In this document: piece by piece, positions 49,626-58,790 of the stretch
How positions within the stretch are numbered: position 1 is the first letter of the stretch
Layout of the letters: each line of letters opens with the position of its first letter
NCBI GenBank assembly: GCA_963681505.1
Contig: OY811988.1
Coordinates: 2,498,306-2,562,305 of the forward strand
DNA length: 64,000 nucleotides
Direction of reading: 5' to 3'
Source of the DNA: Eunapius fragilis
Taxonomy: Eukaryota > Porifera > Demospongiae > Spongillida > Spongillidae
Made by a program: the position numbers and the translations under genes
Notes under the pieces: model-generated
The model's input: only the letters and a program-made list of their open reading frames with translations
The model's database searches: none
What the model was told of the DNA's origin: nothing

Positions 49626-50241
49626 AAAATGTCCGGGCCCGGGCCTCAACGGGGCCCGGGCCTTTAGAGCCACGCCCTTTATTAGTCACTAGGCACGCCC
49701 CCTCAGGCCTGGTCGATAATGAATGGCTTAGTTGCTAATTAGTTTCGGGGCCCAGACCGTTGTAACCAATCAGCGTCTTGGTTTACACTTTCTATTTAAC
49801 GAGCGGCAAGAATGAGCTACCATCCCAAATCAGGCGCCCAGAAAAGAAGGGAAAAGGCAATGTGTGCTGAAGGGGTCAGAGGGCAGAATATGCTAAAACA
49901 AAATGGATTTGATGTAAGTGATAGCGTTTAAAGATTTAATGAGATTGATGAGATTTTCGTGATAATCAGGGTCCGGTTACAGTAACTGAAGCAGAACGAT
50001 CTTTTAGTGTTATAAAAAGAATTAAGAACTATCTCCGATGAACTATGTGCCAGATGCGGTTGACTTCTTTAGGAACATTGGCTGTCGAGTCAGAGTTGGC
50101 GAAGCAACTATAGATATTAATGAAATAATAGAAACCTTCGCAAACAAAAAAGCGCGCAAGCTGCTGTCGGCACTCCCTTCAATTGATGATTTGTGCGTAC
50201 TGTATGTTTATGTTTATGTTCTTCTTTTAAAAAATTTGCTT
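49560..50241 (+). pseudogene. hAT transposon, left part (split by the CACTA element)
   Basis: After a poly-G run (about 49594-49623) and GC-rich GGGCCCGGGCC ends, an exon 49812-49913 encodes MSYHPKSGAQKRREKAMCAE, the usual basic start of ZMYM/TTF-type hAT transposases. It is followed by GTAAG. After an internal deletion, the hAT C-terminal dimerisation region appears at about 49970-50190: VTVTEAERSFSVIKRIKNYL, then DINEIIETFANKKARKLLSA. In-frame stops are present. The remainder of the element resumes after 58353. Confidence 0.75.
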
Positions 50242-50573
50242 CCCAGCGGAAACATCTTGGCCAAGATCTTGCATCGTAATCTTGGGATCTTGGGCCAGCA
50301 ATCTTGGCCAAGAGGCTCCAAGATCTTGGGATCTTGGGGGCACTCTCTTGGCCAAGATCCTGGGGTCTTGGGGGGGTTAACCTTGGCCAAGAGGCCCAAG
50401 ATCCTGCCCAGATCTTTGCCGGAAAATCCTTGTCTCTTGGCCAAGATTCTTGGCTTCAATCCTGGTTTCATCTTGCAGTGCATTCTTGCCTTCATGTACA
50501 TGCATATAACGTTTACATTTATATAGCTACAATCAAAATGATATACATGTACAGTGTATGAGCTGGATAAACA

Positions 50574-50757
50574 TGGGTAACACTTGATGACCTGGTAAAC
50601 AGTTGATGAGCTGGCTAAACAGTTGATGAGCTGGCTAAACAGTTGATGAGCTGCAGGGTAAACAGTTGATGAGCTGGTTAAACAGTTGATGAGCTGCTGG
50701 GTAAACAGTTTGATGAGCTGCAGAGTAAACAGAGTACGTTGTTGAGCTGGGTAGCAA
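50574..50757. repeat. Minisatellite, unit about 20-27 bp
   Basis: About eight variants of GTTGATGAGCTGG(C/T)TAAACA in tandem, just inside the left subterminal region of the CACTA element and ending at the stop of the BEN gene. Confidence 0.85.
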
Positions 50758-50758
50758 G

Positions 50759-52898
50759 TTAGGACATGGTTTGTGAGGAAGTACCACTACCTCCCTTAGT
50801 CAACAAATGCATTTTGCTTTCTTTTTCTTTTTCTTTTTTTTTTATCTCGGCACTTTTGGTTGCACCTCTGTCTTATGGCATTAAGGTTCTCTTCAACTGC
50901 ATTCTTTCCATACCTCATATACAGACATTCTGTACATATATAAATCAATTGCATCATCATATCACCACTTGTATTTAAAAGGTGTACAGCAATGAAATTA
51001 GCACAACAGAAATGGTGGTAGTAAAAAAAAAAACATTTAATTTACCTTCAAGGAGTTTCACTTTTGAAGGTTCTAACGGGGGTTTGTCACTTGCTGTTCC
51101 CCTCTCTGACTGAACAAAGCATGAAGTTGACATATCTTCTTCTGTGAAGAGAGCATCCATTAGGACTAGTGCATATTTGAATATGTCATGAGCCTTGATC
51201 TTTCTTATATCAACACCATTTTCCTAAAATTGAAATAAACATTTATTAAGTTATGTCTCAAAAATTATAGAAACAGATAATACCATTATAAATTTCTCTT
51301 CACTTTCAGGTGGTGGTGATGTTACCTGGGGCCTTTTCACATCGGCAAAATAGCAACTTTGCCTGCTTCTTCTGTATTTGGGACGCCACCGTCACTGACT
51401 TTTTCCATCAATTGATGATGGTCACGATCTGTCCTTCCCATAATAGTGATCAATGTGAGCACGGAACTATTCAATGCCACTACATGTGTATTGAGTACAT
51501 CAATACTTTGCTGTGGAGAAACATTTATGAATGAAAATAAATTAAGCAAAATACTCACCTTCAGACAGCTGGTTATGTTTTCCCATTGTTTGCTCTAACC
51601 GCCAGTCATTGTCAATGTCATGATTCACATGTGGATTACCAAAAATGTGATTTAATTTATCTTACATCACATTTAGTAGCTGCTAAGGTGTTCTGATCTT
51701 GATCAACTGATCTCTGAACACAGATTTTTAAAATATCAGATTAAAAATACTACATGTGTCTCCTTACCTGCTGACTATGAATTTCTGCTTGTGGCTGTGA
51801 TGTCTACAAGAAAAAGAAAATAAACATCACCACATTATGAAAAATAAATTTAATTGCAAAAGCTATATTGCATAATGAGTACCTTTTCCTTAGCATGTTC
51901 CTCTGCTGAATCAGAATCTTCACTAAACAAATGCTTATTAGCAGGCTTAGGCTTCCCTTTTGGATAAGAAGGCATTATACCATGCAAACATATATTGTAT
52001 ATATATATATATGTGAACCATTTATTAGGGAACATGTATTCAGAATATCCAATTTCAAAATGATTCATAATTTCATATATAGGTATGATATCGCAGCATT
52101 GATCCACATAAAAAGGTCCCAAAAATCTTTACAATCACAGCCACCAATTTTTTTTTGTAATCAACCTGGACAAATCTAGGACAACTTAATGCATGCAGTA
52201 ATTGCAAAAATTGATATTGTGTTACCGATAAACATTACAATAAGGCTTTTTTTTCATGCTTGAAAATTATTTTAAACGGTTACCTGTACAGGTCAGTGCA
52301 AGAAATTAGTCCATATGCTTACCATCCACCTCCTGTAGAACTACTGTATACAGTTTCCCTTTGTTTTTCCACACCATCTCTGCTCCTGGTATCAGATCGT
52401 CTTCTTCAACAACCCCTTTACTTGAATAGATAGCGTACTCGACAGGCATCTGTTCAATGCACAACACATTGCACCACTCTGAAAAGGTAGTTCAGCGTAC
52501 GTAAATAACGCCTACCACTGTTTATTATAAGTCTTCAGAGGACGCACTCTCACCCACAGGTAAGAGTTTCTAGTCTATCATCCTTCCCAAACACCGGCCC
52601 CCCGCGACAATGGCAAATGCTAGCGCTGTGTCGAAAATAGACAATGGTATACAAAACTGGCCATAGGACTAAATCGTATACATATATGGCTTTTACGCTA
52701 TTCGCGCGCTACACATGCATGCATGAATCCCATGCAGGCAGTTTTTTTTTAATTTTTGGTTAAACTACAAAAACCATGCCTCATATATGCATCACATGCC
52801 ACATTTTTGTAAGCTGCCGGAACTCACTCTTTGTGGACATGGGTGGTTACAAGGTCGTCGTACCTTTTCGGTAATCGCCCTGGTCTCTTAGGAGGCAT
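50759..52898 (-). CDS. BEN-domain protein encoded inside the CACTA element
   Basis: Likely exons (minus order): 52828-52898 (MPPKRPGRLPKRYDDL start), 52323-52478 (WCNVLCIEQMPVEYAIYSSK, WKNKGKLYTVVL), about 51884-51975 (Lys-rich then SEDSDSAEEHAKEK), 51768-51803, about 51395-51510, 51046-51223, 50759-50929. The last two join in phase and form a BEN-like domain: YALVLMDALFTEEDMSTSCF, KPPLEPSKVKLLE, then NLNAIRQRCNQKCRDKKK, with a basic tail. BEN domains bind DNA and recruit chromatin repressors. Two inner junctions (exon 1 to 2, and the end of the fifth) do not resolve in phase, so the model is partial or the copy is damaged. Its place in a CACTA element suggests the accessory second protein that such elements often carry. 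A host gene caught between repeats is less likely, given its position inside the element. Confidence 0.65.
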
Positions 52899-53151
52899 AG
52901 CCAGTGCGCAAAGCTCTCTTGCAATATCACGTGCACGCTAGAAAGCACGTAAATTGAAGAGTGCGCCCGCCCCGTCTGAAAACAAAGTGGCCCGCCGTTG
53001 AACAAAAAGATCAAGAGACCAACTCTTTTAGCACGTGACGCTACAGTAATTAAATTAGGTTGTGTTCTATAAATACATTATTTTACGGCCCAGCAAAAGT
53101 AACAGCGCCTGAGGATTCCACTGCATTCTGATCGGCATACCTACTTGTTCA
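52899..53151. promoter_or_regulatory. Divergent promoter of the CACTA element
   Basis: The 253 bp separate the BEN-gene ATG (minus) from the probable transposase ATG (plus, 53152). They contain two CACGTG-type sites (about 52930 and 53034) and a TATAAATA-like box at 53069 oriented for the transposase. Confidence 0.5.
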
Positions 53152-53202
53152 TGGATCCGGCTGCAGCAGATGAAAGTGAAGGTGATGTGTTATCGTACGT
53201 AA

Positions 53203-54204
53203 CAGGCCGTGGCAGCCGGTCAGGCATTCGGGCTATAGCCTGACCACTTTTTGCCCAAGCTAAGCTTAATATAAGGTCCACCCCGACAGAAACGGCTGAA
53301 AACGATATACAATTGTGTGTATACTATACCCGGTCACTGTATGGATAATTATATTCACAGGTTACCAGCTAAACAGTTTTCATGGTTGTTTAGTTCTAGA
53401 TCTGGCCATTGAATAGCTACATGTATACGAAATTGCAATCTGCTGCTATTTTTTGTTTCTAATTTTAAAAACCAGTCACATTTATATCGTTATAGATTTT
53501 AGTATTCAGTATTGTAGTCAACGTGAGCGCCTCATGGATGACTGTTCAATTGACGCTATAACTTTCAATCGTCATCTGAGATTCTTTTAGATGTTGCAGA
53601 AAACCCTAATCACCTCATTAAGTACAACTTCCCTAAACGAGCGTTTGGTGTATTATTTAGTAAGCATCAATATATATATATATGGGACAGTGTCCAGCAG
53701 AATCATCCTTCTGGCTAGTTTTTCAAGTTTTCAAATTTTTAGATTTTCCTTGAACACCCATGAGCTTCTGTCAAATGGTCCTTACACATCCTAAATCGGA
53801 CTATCCATCACAAAGTTATTAGGCGCTGAATTTATAATTAGCCATACATTTCAATGCGAGCGTTACTTTTCTTTTGCTTGTTCTGGAAATTTTGACAAAG
53901 TACCATAAGGGTGATTTAGCTGGACACTGTCCCATATATTTATTTTTTAAATACAGAGGGGCATTAAAGGTAGAGTGTTGTTCGGGTCTTTGATTCATTA
54001 CATCATGCAGGGGAAGATTTCATTGCTACATAGCAATTTTGCTGCCAAAACTGCCTCTCAGATTCGCGGAAATGCGTTTGCTTCTGGGGTTCCGCCCCAG
54101 ACCTCGCTGGGGGAGCTTACAGCACTCCCCCAGCCCCCCTAGCTGCTATTTCTTTCAGTCCTATTACCAACCTGACCACTTTTCTAATGCTGCCTATGGG
54201 CCTG
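53203..54204. mobile_element. Nested non-autonomous element of about 1 kb in the transposase 5' intron
   Basis: The tips CAGGCCGTGGCAGC and (inverted) CAGGCCCATAGGCAGC are similar. Both ends also carry a CCTGACCACTTTT block. A CGTAA is present outside both ends, a possible partial target duplicate. It contains the 252-bp MITE. No transposase. hAT-like by its ends, but uncertain. Confidence 0.5.
53683..53934. mobile_element. 252-bp Tc1/mariner-like MITE, copy 1
   Basis: Tips TGGGACAGTGTCCAGC and GCTGGACACTGTCCCA, flanked by TA on both sides. Nearly identical over its whole length to the copy at 58397-58648. Confidence 0.88.
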
Positions 54205-55239
54205 CGTAATTGACAATCAGTGCAAACAAATAAAATGTGTTAAGTTGTCACTTCCCCTATATAATTAATCATATAATATTAGTTCATTTTTGTCTTTTCT
54301 CTTCACACATAAGTACAATATTTCGTAGCAATTAAACTTAAAGATTATACAGTTAATAATGTTTTCATTGATCTTGGGAACCTTTTTATGTTGTGTATAC
54401 CTTTGCATTGCAACTCAACTTACTTACATGTAGATGGTGTGCCTGTTCGAAAGAGGTATCGAGAATACCTTTGGAATCCCAGCATTCCTATTCCGATGTA
54501 TATCCAAGAGCATGAGGGTACGTTATCAATCAAATGATACTTTTTTATTTTCTCCCATGCATATTTAACTGCATGTGTATCAATGTGCATGGTATGAGCA
54601 TACCCATTCATGTGCTGCACTGTAGCAAGCAAAGGTGTCCGGAGGAAGTATTGCCATGACCCAAAAGTCCCTGTTCCAGGACGAACACTTCACTGGTGGA
54701 ATGCTAAGACTAGTATGCTTGTTTTAGTATGTAATCTAACATTGATTATGAACGGATATCTATTTTTCAGAGCTGCATGCAAATGTGGATGCAAGTAGTT
54801 TATCAACCGTAAGAGGAGCAGCATGTAAGTATGCCCACCAAGTATAGTTATCATGTTGTGCACGCTTTGTGTGCTCCAATATTGCATCTACAAATGTTGT
54901 TGATGATATCTCTACATGGAGCTGGGAGGAATGCATTTTCACCTTCCTCTATGCCATGGCTGTTATTTAAATTGTTACTTATAGTCATTTTTTATGTGTT
55001 CATTAGCTTTCATTCATTCCAGATTTGGAAGGTCATGATGAATCTTTAATGGAAGTACGGCTTCTTCAAGTATTGCAGGCTGCATTGAAAATAGCAGACT
55101 TGAATATGGGGACAAACAGGAAGGTGAATACTATAACGATAATGGAGATGGCAGCAATGATTGTGAACATTTCACCAGTAAAGATAAAGGTAATAGTGAT
55201 GATGTCAGTGAACAGAGCAATAATCGTTATTAGGTCAGT

Positions 55240-55480
55240 GACAATGAACAGAGTAAGTGCATAGAGGATGATGGTGATGATGAGGGTGTTGAGGGTGATG
55301 TCAGTGATAATGAACAGAGCAAGGGTGTAGAAGGAGATAGTAATGATGTAAGTGAGGGCAGCATAGAAGATGATGATGTCAGTGATAATGAACAGAGAAA
55401 TGGTGTAGAGGGTGATAGTGATGATGTATGTGAACAGAGCAAGGGCATAGATAGAGGGTGATAGTGATGACAGTGACAAT
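55240..55480. repeat. Coding minisatellite (acidic, DVSDNEQ-type units)
   Basis: Imperfect units containing GATGTCAGTGATAATGAACA repeat about four times. In the transposase frame they read as Asp/Ser/Glu-rich units, interrupted by stop codons. Confidence 0.7.
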
Positions 55481-55630
55481 GAACAGTTTGAGATTATGGA
55501 AGATGATGTCTGCAGAAGTAGTATAAGTGGAAGTGCCCTATGTTTAGGTGCACCACTTAGTAAGAAAGTTAGCTGGCTAGCATGCAACTATTTTTCAGTT
55601 ACAAACCACTTAAGCAAATGTGCTACCAGT

Positions 55631-55690
55631 AAATTGTTAGAATTGGTATCAATCCACTGTAAATTGTTAGAATTGGTATCAATCCACTGT
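55631..55690 (+). repeat. Perfect 30-bp tandem duplication in the transposase frame
   Basis: AAATTGTTAGAATTGGTATC plus ten more bases occurs twice in direct succession, repeating KLLELVSIHC without shifting the frame. Confidence 0.9.
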
Positions 55691-58353
55691 TCAGATATCA
55701 ATCAATGTGCAAAAACACCTTACCAGCTATGGAAGCAATTCATGTGTGAAAATGATTATACCATCCAGAAGTATTGTTCACTATGTATGCAAAATTTGGA
55801 AGGTTTAAATAAGTGTTCAGAGCAGCATTGTAGGGTTAACAAAGCACAGACATGTTACTTTGCAGTTCTTCCATTTGAAAGGCATTTGAGAATAATTTAT
55901 TCAGGTAAGCAAGCATGTAAGTTTTAAAATACTTGGCAGTGTGTTTTATTTTCATGCAGAAAAGTGGAATGAAATATCTCAGTACTTCTATAAAACTCAC
56001 AATACTAATGAAGGCATCATTGGTGACATTTCGGATGGAAGTATTGCAGCAGCACTTCGGAAAGAAGGGCAGTTTCTTTCAGTGCCAGAGCATACAGGAC
56101 TTATTATGTGTTGCGATGGAGTTCCTGTTTTCAAGTCAAGGGTAAGTAGATATGTTGAAATAATATAAACTTGGCACAATTTAATTTTTCTACAAAGGTT
56201 CCTCATTCTATACATCTACACACACACATTTAGATTTAATTTATGATCACAAATCAGTATGAAGGGTTTGCTGTTCATCATAATAATTAATGCATTGTCT
56301 TTCACCAATACTTTCGTCAGGTATGACCCTTTGGCCTTTGCTTCTCATCACAACATCACTTCCACCATTAACTCGAATGAATGCAGAAAATACTATGGTA
56401 AGTGCTTTATGGCTTGGACCATGCAAACCACCGATGGATATCCTTCTTCCACCAACACTTTCAAAAATACAACAGCTTGAAACTAAGGGTATAGAAATAT
56501 CAACCCCTGATGGCACAAAGGTTGTAAAAGCTAAACTTATAGCAGGAGTTTTTGATTTTCCAGCTAAAGTGACAGCATTAAATATAACACAATACAACGG
56601 TTATTATGGATGTCCTTATTGTACAGACAGGGGTATACATAAGTGTCACCGACACCTCTACCTTCCAATTGAACACACAAAATTCGCACACCTTTTGAAA
56701 TAGCTGTGTGGGCGCAAAAAGCAATTATGTTGGGAAGGCCTGTGTTTGGAGTAAAAGGAATATCTCTATTGGCACCCTTCATTTCAATATACCATATACC
56801 TATTGACTATATGCATGCTATTCTAGAAGGTGTGGTGAAAGCATTTTTATGTTGTTGGATCAATCCAAAGTATGCTGAACTTAGATTCTATCTTGGAAAA
56901 GTAGTCAACATCATAAACAAGTTCTGCTTAGAATTAAACCACCACACGAGTTTAGGCGATCCCCGAGAGAAACTGGAACAGCTCAAACCTATTGGAAGGC
57001 ATCAGAGTATAAAGTTTGGTTGTTGTATTATAGCCTTCCAATTCTTACCAAAATTTTGCCTCCTGACTATGTTCACCACTTTGCTCTATTAGTTACGGCT
57101 ATGCACATTTTACTTGGAACACGTATAACTTCTGAAAACATCAGAGCTGCTGATGAAATGTTGGTACTATTTTACAATCTTGTGCCACAACTGTATCCTG
57201 AAGAGATGCTGTCACCAAACTTGCACAGTGTTGTTCATCTTTCCAGATTTGTGCAAATGTTAGGACCTCTGTGGGCATACTCCTGCTTTGGTTTTGAAAA
57301 TATGAATGGGTACATAAAGCAACATAGGCATGGGTGTAGGAATTTTATATCCAGCTTGATTCGTGGCATCACAATGAACTACTCAATGACAGCTCACATA
57401 AATGCATTACCTGTGGAAAGTGCACGTACTGTTGCATTTTTTAATCAAAGTGTAAATATCAATAATGGACCCCTGGGAAAGTGCAGAAACACACAGCTTT
57501 TAACAGATGAAGCAAATATTTTATCCAATTCAGATTACAGGGTTTCTGACAAGGTTCTACCTACTTATGTATCATATATGATAAATGGAACTGCATATCA
57601 AGCTAAAAAGACCAAATTGGCACGTGACAGTTCGGTTTGTTCAGAATTCATGTATCATGACACATTGATGTTGGGTTCAATAAGAAAATTTTATGTATTG
57701 AAGAATGCAGATCATGTAGCAATAATTGATGTTTATGAACGGGTATCTCAGGGAATCCTGGACAATGTGTCACCAACAATACATGACCTCAAGTCCTTCA
57801 GAAATATGCAACTGAATTCGTATTTTGTTGTAGTTAAGAAAATATCACTCACAAATAATGTAGTGGCTGTTCCAGTTATTTCAATTTTAAGAAAGTGTGT
57901 TCATGTACCTATCAAATACTCACCTACTGATGTAATTATATTTCAGCCCAATATATATGAACATCATTAATAACACATGTATTGTGTGCAAAATGTCATT
58001 TTCAGTTGTAATATATATGTGCTGATGAACATTAATATTATCTATCATTAGCATATACCTAACAATAATTTATGCACATCTTGCTATGAAAATCATATTT
58101 ACATATGCTGTTTATTAAAATGGATACAATACTGAGCTATCTTATTATATATATAACATCTTGACATCTTGGCTACTTGATTATATCTTGCCATCTTGGC
58201 CTACTCATCTTGGTTTGTATCTTGCCATCTTGGGTTGCGGCTTGGCATCTTGGCTATCCTGAGTTACACCTTGGTATCTTGGGTTGCATCTTGGATAAAT
58301 CTTGCAATCTTGGCCAGGATCCTGGCCAAGATACGTAAGAATTTTTCACTGGG

Positions 58354-58790
58354 CTTTGTACATAACACAAATGGCAAACAACATAGCATGAATATATGGG
58401 ACAGTGTCCAGCAGAATCACCCTTCTGGCTAGTTTTTCAAGTTTTCAAATTTTTTGATTTTCCTTGAACACCCACGAGCTTCTGCCAAATGGTCCTTACG
58501 CATCCTAAATCGGACTATCCATCACAAAGTTATTAGGCACTGAATTTATAATTAGCCATACATTTCAATGCGAGCGTTACTATTCTTTTGCTTGTTCTGG
58601 AAAATTTGAAAAAGTACCATAAGGGTGATTTAGCTGGACACTGTCCCATATACAGTATTATCAGAGATCATATATGATCTCTGATATTATACACTAATGT
58701 ATTATTAATTCATTAGGCTAGGGGCCCGAGAAAAAAATTTGCCCCGGGCCCGGGCTGGCTCTTGGCGGCCCTGTTCACAGGGCCGTCGCC
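58354..58790 (+). pseudogene. hAT transposon, right part
   Basis: Beyond the CACTA insertion, about 390 bp lead to a GC-rich terminus (GCCCCGGGCCCGGGC near 58740, GGCGGCCCTG near 58770). Read inverted, it matches the left end of the hAT remnant at about 49620-49660 (GGGCAAAAATGT...CGGGCCCGGGC). A 252-bp MITE and a small ATATGATCTCTGATA hairpin lie within. Confidence 0.55.
58397..58648. mobile_element. 252-bp Tc1/mariner-like MITE, copy 2
   Basis: Same tips, same length and only scattered substitutions compared with 53683-53934. Flanked by TA. Confidence 0.88.

Follow-up and report, generated by a model that had tools for sequence, protein, structure and literature searches.

A CACTA-type DNA transposon of the sponge Eunapius fragilis carrying a BEN-domain gene head to head with its transposase gene

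A two-gene DNA transposon of the CACTA type (Transposase_21) occupies positions 50242-58353 of a 64,000-nt stretch of the Eunapius fragilis genome (contig OY811988.1 of assembly GCA_963681505.1, forward strand; hereafter the window, to which all positions refer). A transposase gene on the plus strand is arranged head to head with a BEN-domain gene on the minus strand, and the same arrangement is found in all full-length copies of the element and at most of the diverged transposase loci of its lineage. The window element appears to be a decayed copy of a recently active transposon belonging to a CCC-tipped lineage, in which the BEN gene regularly accompanies the transposase and its product may bind the element ends and/or tune expression; we assign this reading a probability of roughly 0.6.

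Structure and gene organization

The element begins with CCCAGCGG at 50242, ends with CACTGGG at 58353, and is flanked by CTT on both sides, in agreement with the first-pass annotation of the window, which had described an element of about 8.1 kb with CCCAG tips and a CTT duplication. The TCTTGG-rich subterminal arrays named there are also evident from word counts: 17 instances of TCTTGG/CCAAGA lie in the left 260 bp and 9 in the right 260 bp, compared with 0.10 per 260 bp in the interior. The plus-strand open reading frame (ORF) that had been taken for a CACTA transposase matches Pfam Transposase_21 with 49.7 bits in the window and 47.9 bits in the modelled protein of another copy, L012 (cut-off, 28.6). 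The two candidate starts, which had been placed about 250 bp apart, are separated by 252 bp (BEN ATG at 52898-52896, minus; candidate transposase ATG at 53151, plus). Exon models were built in L012 and mapped to the window, and the predicted splice sites fit the AG/GT rule. The features of the element are as follows.

50239..50241, unstranded: target site duplication CTT, left copy (from the sequence, with other copies compared)
50242..50261, plus: left tip CCCAGCGGAAACATCTTGGC, an imperfect terminal inverted repeat, with 20 bases identical in 10 of 11 copies
50252..50480, unstranded: left subterminal array, containing the palindrome TCTTGGCCAAGA four times (word counts)
50759..50929, minus: BEN exon 8, second half of the BEN domain (...CNQKCRDKK...), mapped from the L012 model
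51046..51223, minus: BEN exon 7, first half of the BEN domain, mapped from the L012 model and found by Pfam scan
51284..51510, minus: BEN exon 6, with AG/GT ends; length differs by 2 bp in the window copy
51559..51594, minus: BEN exon 5, mapped from the L012 model
51768..51803, minus: BEN exon 4, mapped from the L012 model
51883..51956, minus: BEN exon 3, mapped from the L012 model
52323..52478, minus: BEN exon 2, conserved N-terminal domain (WC.V.C...NR...), also present in the diverged families L030, L031, and L036
52828..52898, minus: BEN exon 1 with the ATG, 8 bp shorter than that of L012
52899..53150, unstranded: spacer of 252 bp between the two candidate starts, a candidate two-way promoter (putative function)
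53151..53194, plus: candidate first transposase exon (MDPAAADESEGDVLS...), placed by eye, the start being without homology support
55023..55904, plus: transposase exon with an acidic region followed by a C-rich region (model mapped)
55960..56137, plus: transposase exon holding CDGVPVFKS (model mapped)
56321..57970, plus: main transposase exon with the Transposase_21 match, frameshifted in the window copy
58158..58336, unstranded: right subterminal array (word counts)
58334..58353, minus: right tip ...TTTTTCACTGGG, with the last 19 bases the same in 11 of 11 copies
58354..58356, unstranded: target site duplication CTT, right copy (from the sequence)

The window copy is dead, with frameshifts and stops in both gene models. 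Because exon 1 is shortened by 8 bp in this copy and likewise in L016 and L018, the BEN model is out of frame in all three. L018 is also the copy whose 20-base left tip deviates from those of the others (CCCAGTGGAAACTTCTTGGC).

Identification of the BEN domain

The minus-strand gene, which had been annotated as BEN-like, was checked against the Pfam profile PF10523 (cut-off, 23.2 bits). The BEN domain of L012 alone scores 26.3 bits, the whole spliced L012 protein, in which BEN is the sole Pfam match near a cut-off, scores 23.1 bits (just below the cut-off), and one BEN exon of the window by itself scores 14 bits. BEN domains exceed the cut-off in all six families of the lineage distinguished here, namely the window family and five diverged families represented by L030, L031, L032, L033, and L036 (26.3, 29.7, 32.4, 24.3, 26.5, and 24.8 bits), and G, L, F, L, and NQKC are invariant across them. 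The best matches of their profile in the PDB are the BEN domains of BANP (E 1.7e-4), BEND6, and BEND3. BEN-domain proteins also include the insect DNA-binding protein Insv, and some members are viral.

The genome contains other BEN genes. L026, L027, and L028 have open frames of 167-177 codons whose BEN matches exceed the Pfam cut-off; L027 and L028 are unlike the transposon type, matching its profile weakly, and look like ordinary host BEN genes. L039 (G000:C20:4727000-4735500) is one of seven same-strand BEN fragments within 133 kb (C20:4.70-4.83 Mb). This fragment forms part of a ~7.6-kb repeat and neighbours a gene judged by eye to resemble TRIM-NHL, which suggests amplification of a BEN remnant together with a host gene.

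Near-identical full-length copies

When the left 1059 bp of the element was used to search the whole genome at the DNA level, 12 full-query matches were obtained. Eleven copies, including that in the window, extend from tip to tip, and L019 consists of the first 1.45 kb only. The eleven full-length copies are 98.3-99.8% identical to one another (gaps excluded). Ten of them are flanked by 3-bp target site duplications, which represent ten different triplets, and L013 is flanked by CACA/CACA. All eight BEN exons and all three modelled transposase exons were detected over at least 80% of their bases in every full-length copy (11/11), so that both genes are present in each, the outcome that the first-pass annotation had named as support; a full-length copy lacking the BEN gene, the finding that would have told against the proposed pairing, was absent among the 11. 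The BEN model is open in L011, L012, L014, L017, and L020, and the transposase model is open in L011, L012, L015, L016, and L017, where the main exon lies within an open frame of 560 codons. Both models are therefore open in three copies, L011, L012, and L017.

Pairing of BEN and transposase genes across the genome

The two genes are head to head in all 11 full-length copies, and a head-to-head BEN exon was found within 12 kb at 43 of the 66 diverged transposase loci of the lineage (44 when any orientation is accepted). The head-to-head count changes little with the distance allowed, being 41 at 8 kb and 43 at 20 kb. When the 165 BEN loci were placed at random in 1000 trials, with the extent of each contig taken as the highest coordinate among the matches, the mean was 0.37 and the maximum was 5 of 66. 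Of 124 other Transposase_21 loci, taken from the 150 candidates scored, 3 have any BEN exon within 12 kb and only 1 has it head to head, about the level of chance (shuffled mean, 0.63). BEN was accordingly rejected as something that Transposase_21 elements detectably carry in general.

In these counts, pairing was judged on exon matches rather than gene models, any BEN match within reach was accepted, and weak matches were included (two transposase hits of 30% identity and some BEN hits with E above ~0.02). BEN queries were taken from the window family, L033, L036, and L032, and transposase queries from the window family and one more. The counts are lower bounds, the best 150 of 305 Transposase_21 candidates and the best 72 of 584 and 88 of 491 transposase candidates having been scored. 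A first count with fewer queries, from which the eleven copies were excluded, had given 29 of 53 transposase loci head to head within 12 kb, and a later one based on less complete lists had given 53/75 and 1/126; the latter was replaced by the present 43/66, 11/11, and 1/124.

Four transposases appeared to lack BEN with the first query. With a profile of the family, two of these, L033 and L036, yielded both BEN exons upstream on the opposite strand. Transposase identities to the window family are 55% (L030), 39% (L031), 34% (L032), 36% (L033), and 40% (L036), and for the BEN domains of these five families the corresponding range is 32-46%. The pairing is thus old, being present across families with transposases down to 34% identity, and the recurrence of the same head-to-head pair in such distantly related transposons suggests that the BEN protein is probably part of the movement or control of the element. 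An N-terminal domain of ~57 residues is also common to the BEN proteins of the window family, L030, L031, and L036.

The transposases of the lineage are 23-27% identical to that of L040, another Transposase_21 element. For L040, no BEN was found in ~2 kb upstream of the transposase ORF, a weak negative given the shortness of this stretch and the failure to locate the tips. In the transposase tree, L034 groups with L031 and L036 (modest support, 81/87); L040 is the sole outsider and has a long branch, and the tree thus provides no test of a single BEN-bearing clade. In L030, the 5' part of the transposase gene contains duplicated short exon-like units with spacings of 84 and 76 bp, and the N-terminal region of the protein contains a long Asp-rich stretch.

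BEN exons of the L036 type are present at ~35 places (hits of at least 57% identity), compared with four transposase loci of this type at at least 88% identity. At two of the BEN places, L037 and L038, the BEN exons are broken and the transposase lists contain no match. Both look like derivatives that keep the BEN side of an L036-type element, with repeat arrays further in.

Tips, subterminal arrays, and palindromes

The tips of the diverged families are CCCAGC in L030 (14-bp perfect repeat; duplication TGC/TGC), CCCAG[G/C]C in L031 (CA/CA), CCCAAGG in L032 (TT/TT at best), and CCCTAG in L033 (no duplication seen), and the left tip of L036 is also CCCTAG. A lone left tip of the window type (84-85% over ~99 bp) was found in L023 (G000:C21:1361000-1370000) at three places 6.6 kb apart, two of which lie in a tandem duplication.

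The arrays differ between families. Both ends were delimited in five families, and in four of these (window family, L030, L031, and L032) the left end is rich in palindromes, containing more palindromic 8-mers than every one of 200 shuffled versions. The main end palindromes are TTGGCCAA in the window family, AAGATCTT in L030 and L031, and CATGCATG in L032. In the window family, the 12-bp palindrome TCTTGGCCAAGA is confined to the left end, with four copies (three in L021) and none at the right. The transposase of L030 is closest to that of the window family (55%), and TTGGCCAA is also common to both; the commonest palindrome of L030, AAGATCTT, is that of L031, the closest relative of L030 in BEN (57%). 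It looks as if the arrays follow the BEN protein at least in part.

Such palindromes, together with the CATG-rich ends of L032, are the type of site that published BEN domains bind. In the excerpts of the sources cited here, the BEN domain of NACC1 selects the palindrome ACATGT (PMC7764960) and recognises CATG, and that of BANP was crystallised on CATCTCGCGAGAT, a palindrome holding CTCGCGAG (PMC11472053).

Possible roles of the BEN protein

From the anatomy of the element and by analogy with plants, the simplest and most plausible reading is that the BEN protein binds the ends of the element, regulates the element, or does both, and would thus match plant TnpA in function while using an unrelated domain. 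Plant TNPA, as described in excerpts of PMC2613891, binds the subterminal repeats, can act as a suppressor, and is required together with TNPD for transposition. By this analogy, the BEN protein would bind the subterminal arrays, probably as a dimer or multimer, and would help the transposase to assemble on the ends and to pair them; near the shared promoter or the ends, it would also tune the expression of the element itself, and the two jobs together would equal the double job of TnpA. A role on the subterminal repeats as accessory factor or self-regulator would fit both the anatomy of the element and the published biochemistry of BEN domains.

It is also conceivable, although rather unlikely, that the main job of the BEN protein is to regulate or shield the element, whether as a repressor, as an insulator, or by counteracting silencing, and that it does so at the shared promoter or through chromatin, with transposition requiring the transposase only. 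The candidate starts are only 252 bp apart, most human BEN proteins have chromatin-related functions (PMC11472053, in excerpt), and the restriction of TCTTGGCCAAGA to the left end of the window family points in the same direction, whereas TCTTGG/CCAAGA is dense at both ends and rare in the interior, including the spacer, a distribution that fits cis-acting transposition sites rather than promoter sites. A passenger gene, captured once by the ancestor of the lineage and carried without use, would account for a ratio of non-synonymous to synonymous polymorphism (pN/pS) near 1 among the recent copies and for the BEN places without a listed transposase, of which the two examined have broken exons. 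This alternative is quite improbable, because a gene without use would disappear. Here, the BEN domain can still be recognised in both halves and exceeds the Pfam cut-off in six families, although the transposases of five of them are only 34-55% identical to that of the window family; four of the six also retain the N-terminal domain, and gene order and orientation are conserved. The existence of further BEN genes over the PF10523 cut-off (L026-L028), two of which match the transposon-type profile weakly, might suggest an ordinary host gene lying beside or inside a transposon by chance. This idea, which the first-pass annotation had set against its own proposal as a lone host gene unrelated to CACTA copies, is refuted by the position of the gene between the tips in 11 of 11 copies and by the 43 of 66 head-to-head diverged loci (0.37 by chance; 1 of 124 at other Transposase_21 loci), leaving it a negligible probability.

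Several observations weigh against the BEN gene as a standing partner of the transposase. Purifying selection on BEN is not clear among the recent copies: the 11 copies show 10 synonymous and 33 non-synonymous distinct changes and 4 nonsense changes in BEN (pN/pS 0.87, compared with 0.61 for the transposase), a comparison that is low in power because most changes probably represent decay after insertion. Compared with L022, a relative that is itself decayed, BEN has an omega of 0.60 (245 codons). At 23 of the 66 diverged loci, no BEN lies head to head within 12 kb; by the family profile, no BEN was found in ~7.7 kb upstream of the 585-codon transposase ORF of L034, and none was found in L035, a 98% relative of L036. 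Conversely, for 106 of the 165 BEN loci the transposase lists contain no entry within 12 kb, a number that is over-counted because the lists are incomplete, and L037 and L038, with their broken BEN exons and no listed transposase, indicate that BEN can also ride passively. The low rate of pairs at other Transposase_21 loci may in part reflect more diverged BEN genes escaping the queries. The correlation between BEN distances and transposase distances is only modest (Mantel r 0.50, a value reached or exceeded in 33 of 720 permutations).

Some features of the palindromes also weigh against this reading. Right ends are mixed, the number of shuffles (of 200) that reach the observed 8-mer count being 2 in the window copy, 119 in L012, 0 in L030, 14 in L031, 15 in L032, and 15 in L033. 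In L033, even palindromes of at least 8 bp are absent from the left end (200 of 200 shuffles reach the count). Among the interior stretches, two of which were tested per element, one of L032 (0/200) and one of L031 (1/200) stand out, and the palindromes are thus not restricted to the ends in every family.

Relationship to known elements and proteins

Target site duplications of CACTA/EnSpm elements are 2-3 bp in length. The present element shares with this superfamily the Transposase_21 domain, 3-bp duplications in 10 of 11 copies, and subterminal arrays at both ends, whereas its tips begin with CCC (CCCAG in 11 of 11 copies) rather than with the CACTA of plant elements. Plant En/Spm elements likewise combine a tnp2/Transposase_21 transposase with dense subterminal repeats and a second element-encoded protein that binds them (PMC2613891, in excerpt). 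In En/Spm, however, TnpA arises by alternative splicing of the transcription unit of TnpD, whereas the second protein here is encoded by a separate, divergent gene and carries a BEN domain. Animal TRC-type elements (SmTRC1 and those of Tribolium and Aedes) have Transposase_21 and CCC tips, and the Aedes tip begins with CCCAG as here; the duplications reported for them are 2 bp, compared with 3 bp in 10 of 11 copies here (PMC1636069, in excerpt). On the basis of CCC tips with Transposase_21, the element was therefore filed with this CCC-tipped animal branch (PMC1636069) rather than with the classical CACTA-tipped elements. The excerpts of PMC1636069 show no BEN gene for TRC-type elements, although no search aimed at BEN was made.

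BANP, NACC1, BEND3, and BEND6 belong to the same domain family by profile, and short palindromic targets are described for NACC1 and BANP in the excerpts cited above. Known BEN proteins are host chromatin proteins or viral proteins, whereas the gene described here is borne on a transposon and paired with its transposase. A second chromatin-related gene beside a transposase is also found in fungal DNA transposons carrying TET/JBP dioxygenase genes (PMC12730594, in excerpt); these encode an enzyme acting on methylcytosine, in contrast to the DNA-binding domain found here.

CACTA elements with a second DNA-binding protein are already known, and what is new here is the BEN partner and the divergent gene arrangement. 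The first-pass annotation knew of no description of such a pairing in an early animal, and it is apparently undescribed: none was found in searches of open-licence PubMed Central text, the wider of which covered the top of the results, a scope outside which subscription papers and Repbase fall. PMC5704228 names BEN in its reference list only.

We know of no protein identified as the reader of the long subterminal arrays of animal CACTA elements. A whole animal CACTA lineage might have swapped a TnpA-type factor for a BEN protein that reads fast-changing palindromic end arrays, a broader proposal that we regard as tentative and at somewhat less than even odds; if it is true, factors of this kind might be the ancestors of some BEN genes of animals. 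Should BEN read the arrays, the near-identical natural copies and several diverged families available for comparison would constitute a direct and testable partner system, and a domain known mainly from chromatin factors would have a home in transposons, which would be a possible source of animal BEN genes.

Other features of the region

One transposase exon had no match in viral contigs, and part of the transposase had none in a sequence search of the PDB. A hAT-like tail suspected by eye to the left of the element (~49990-50190) was rejected, since the 56 residues scanned gave no Pfam match. An array of the 20-bp unit AACAGTTGATGAGCTGGCTA is located at 50579-50720, just downstream of the modelled BEN stop. 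One further feature interrupts the window copy.

~53683..53964, unstranded: palindromic repeat resembling a miniature inverted-repeat transposable element (MITE), an insertion of ~250-280 bp absent from the other ten full-length copies

A second copy of this MITE-like repeat lies at ~58392-58650, ~40 bp beyond the right tip of the element; the two copies match 97% over 209 nt and have the ends GGGACAGTGTCCAGC.

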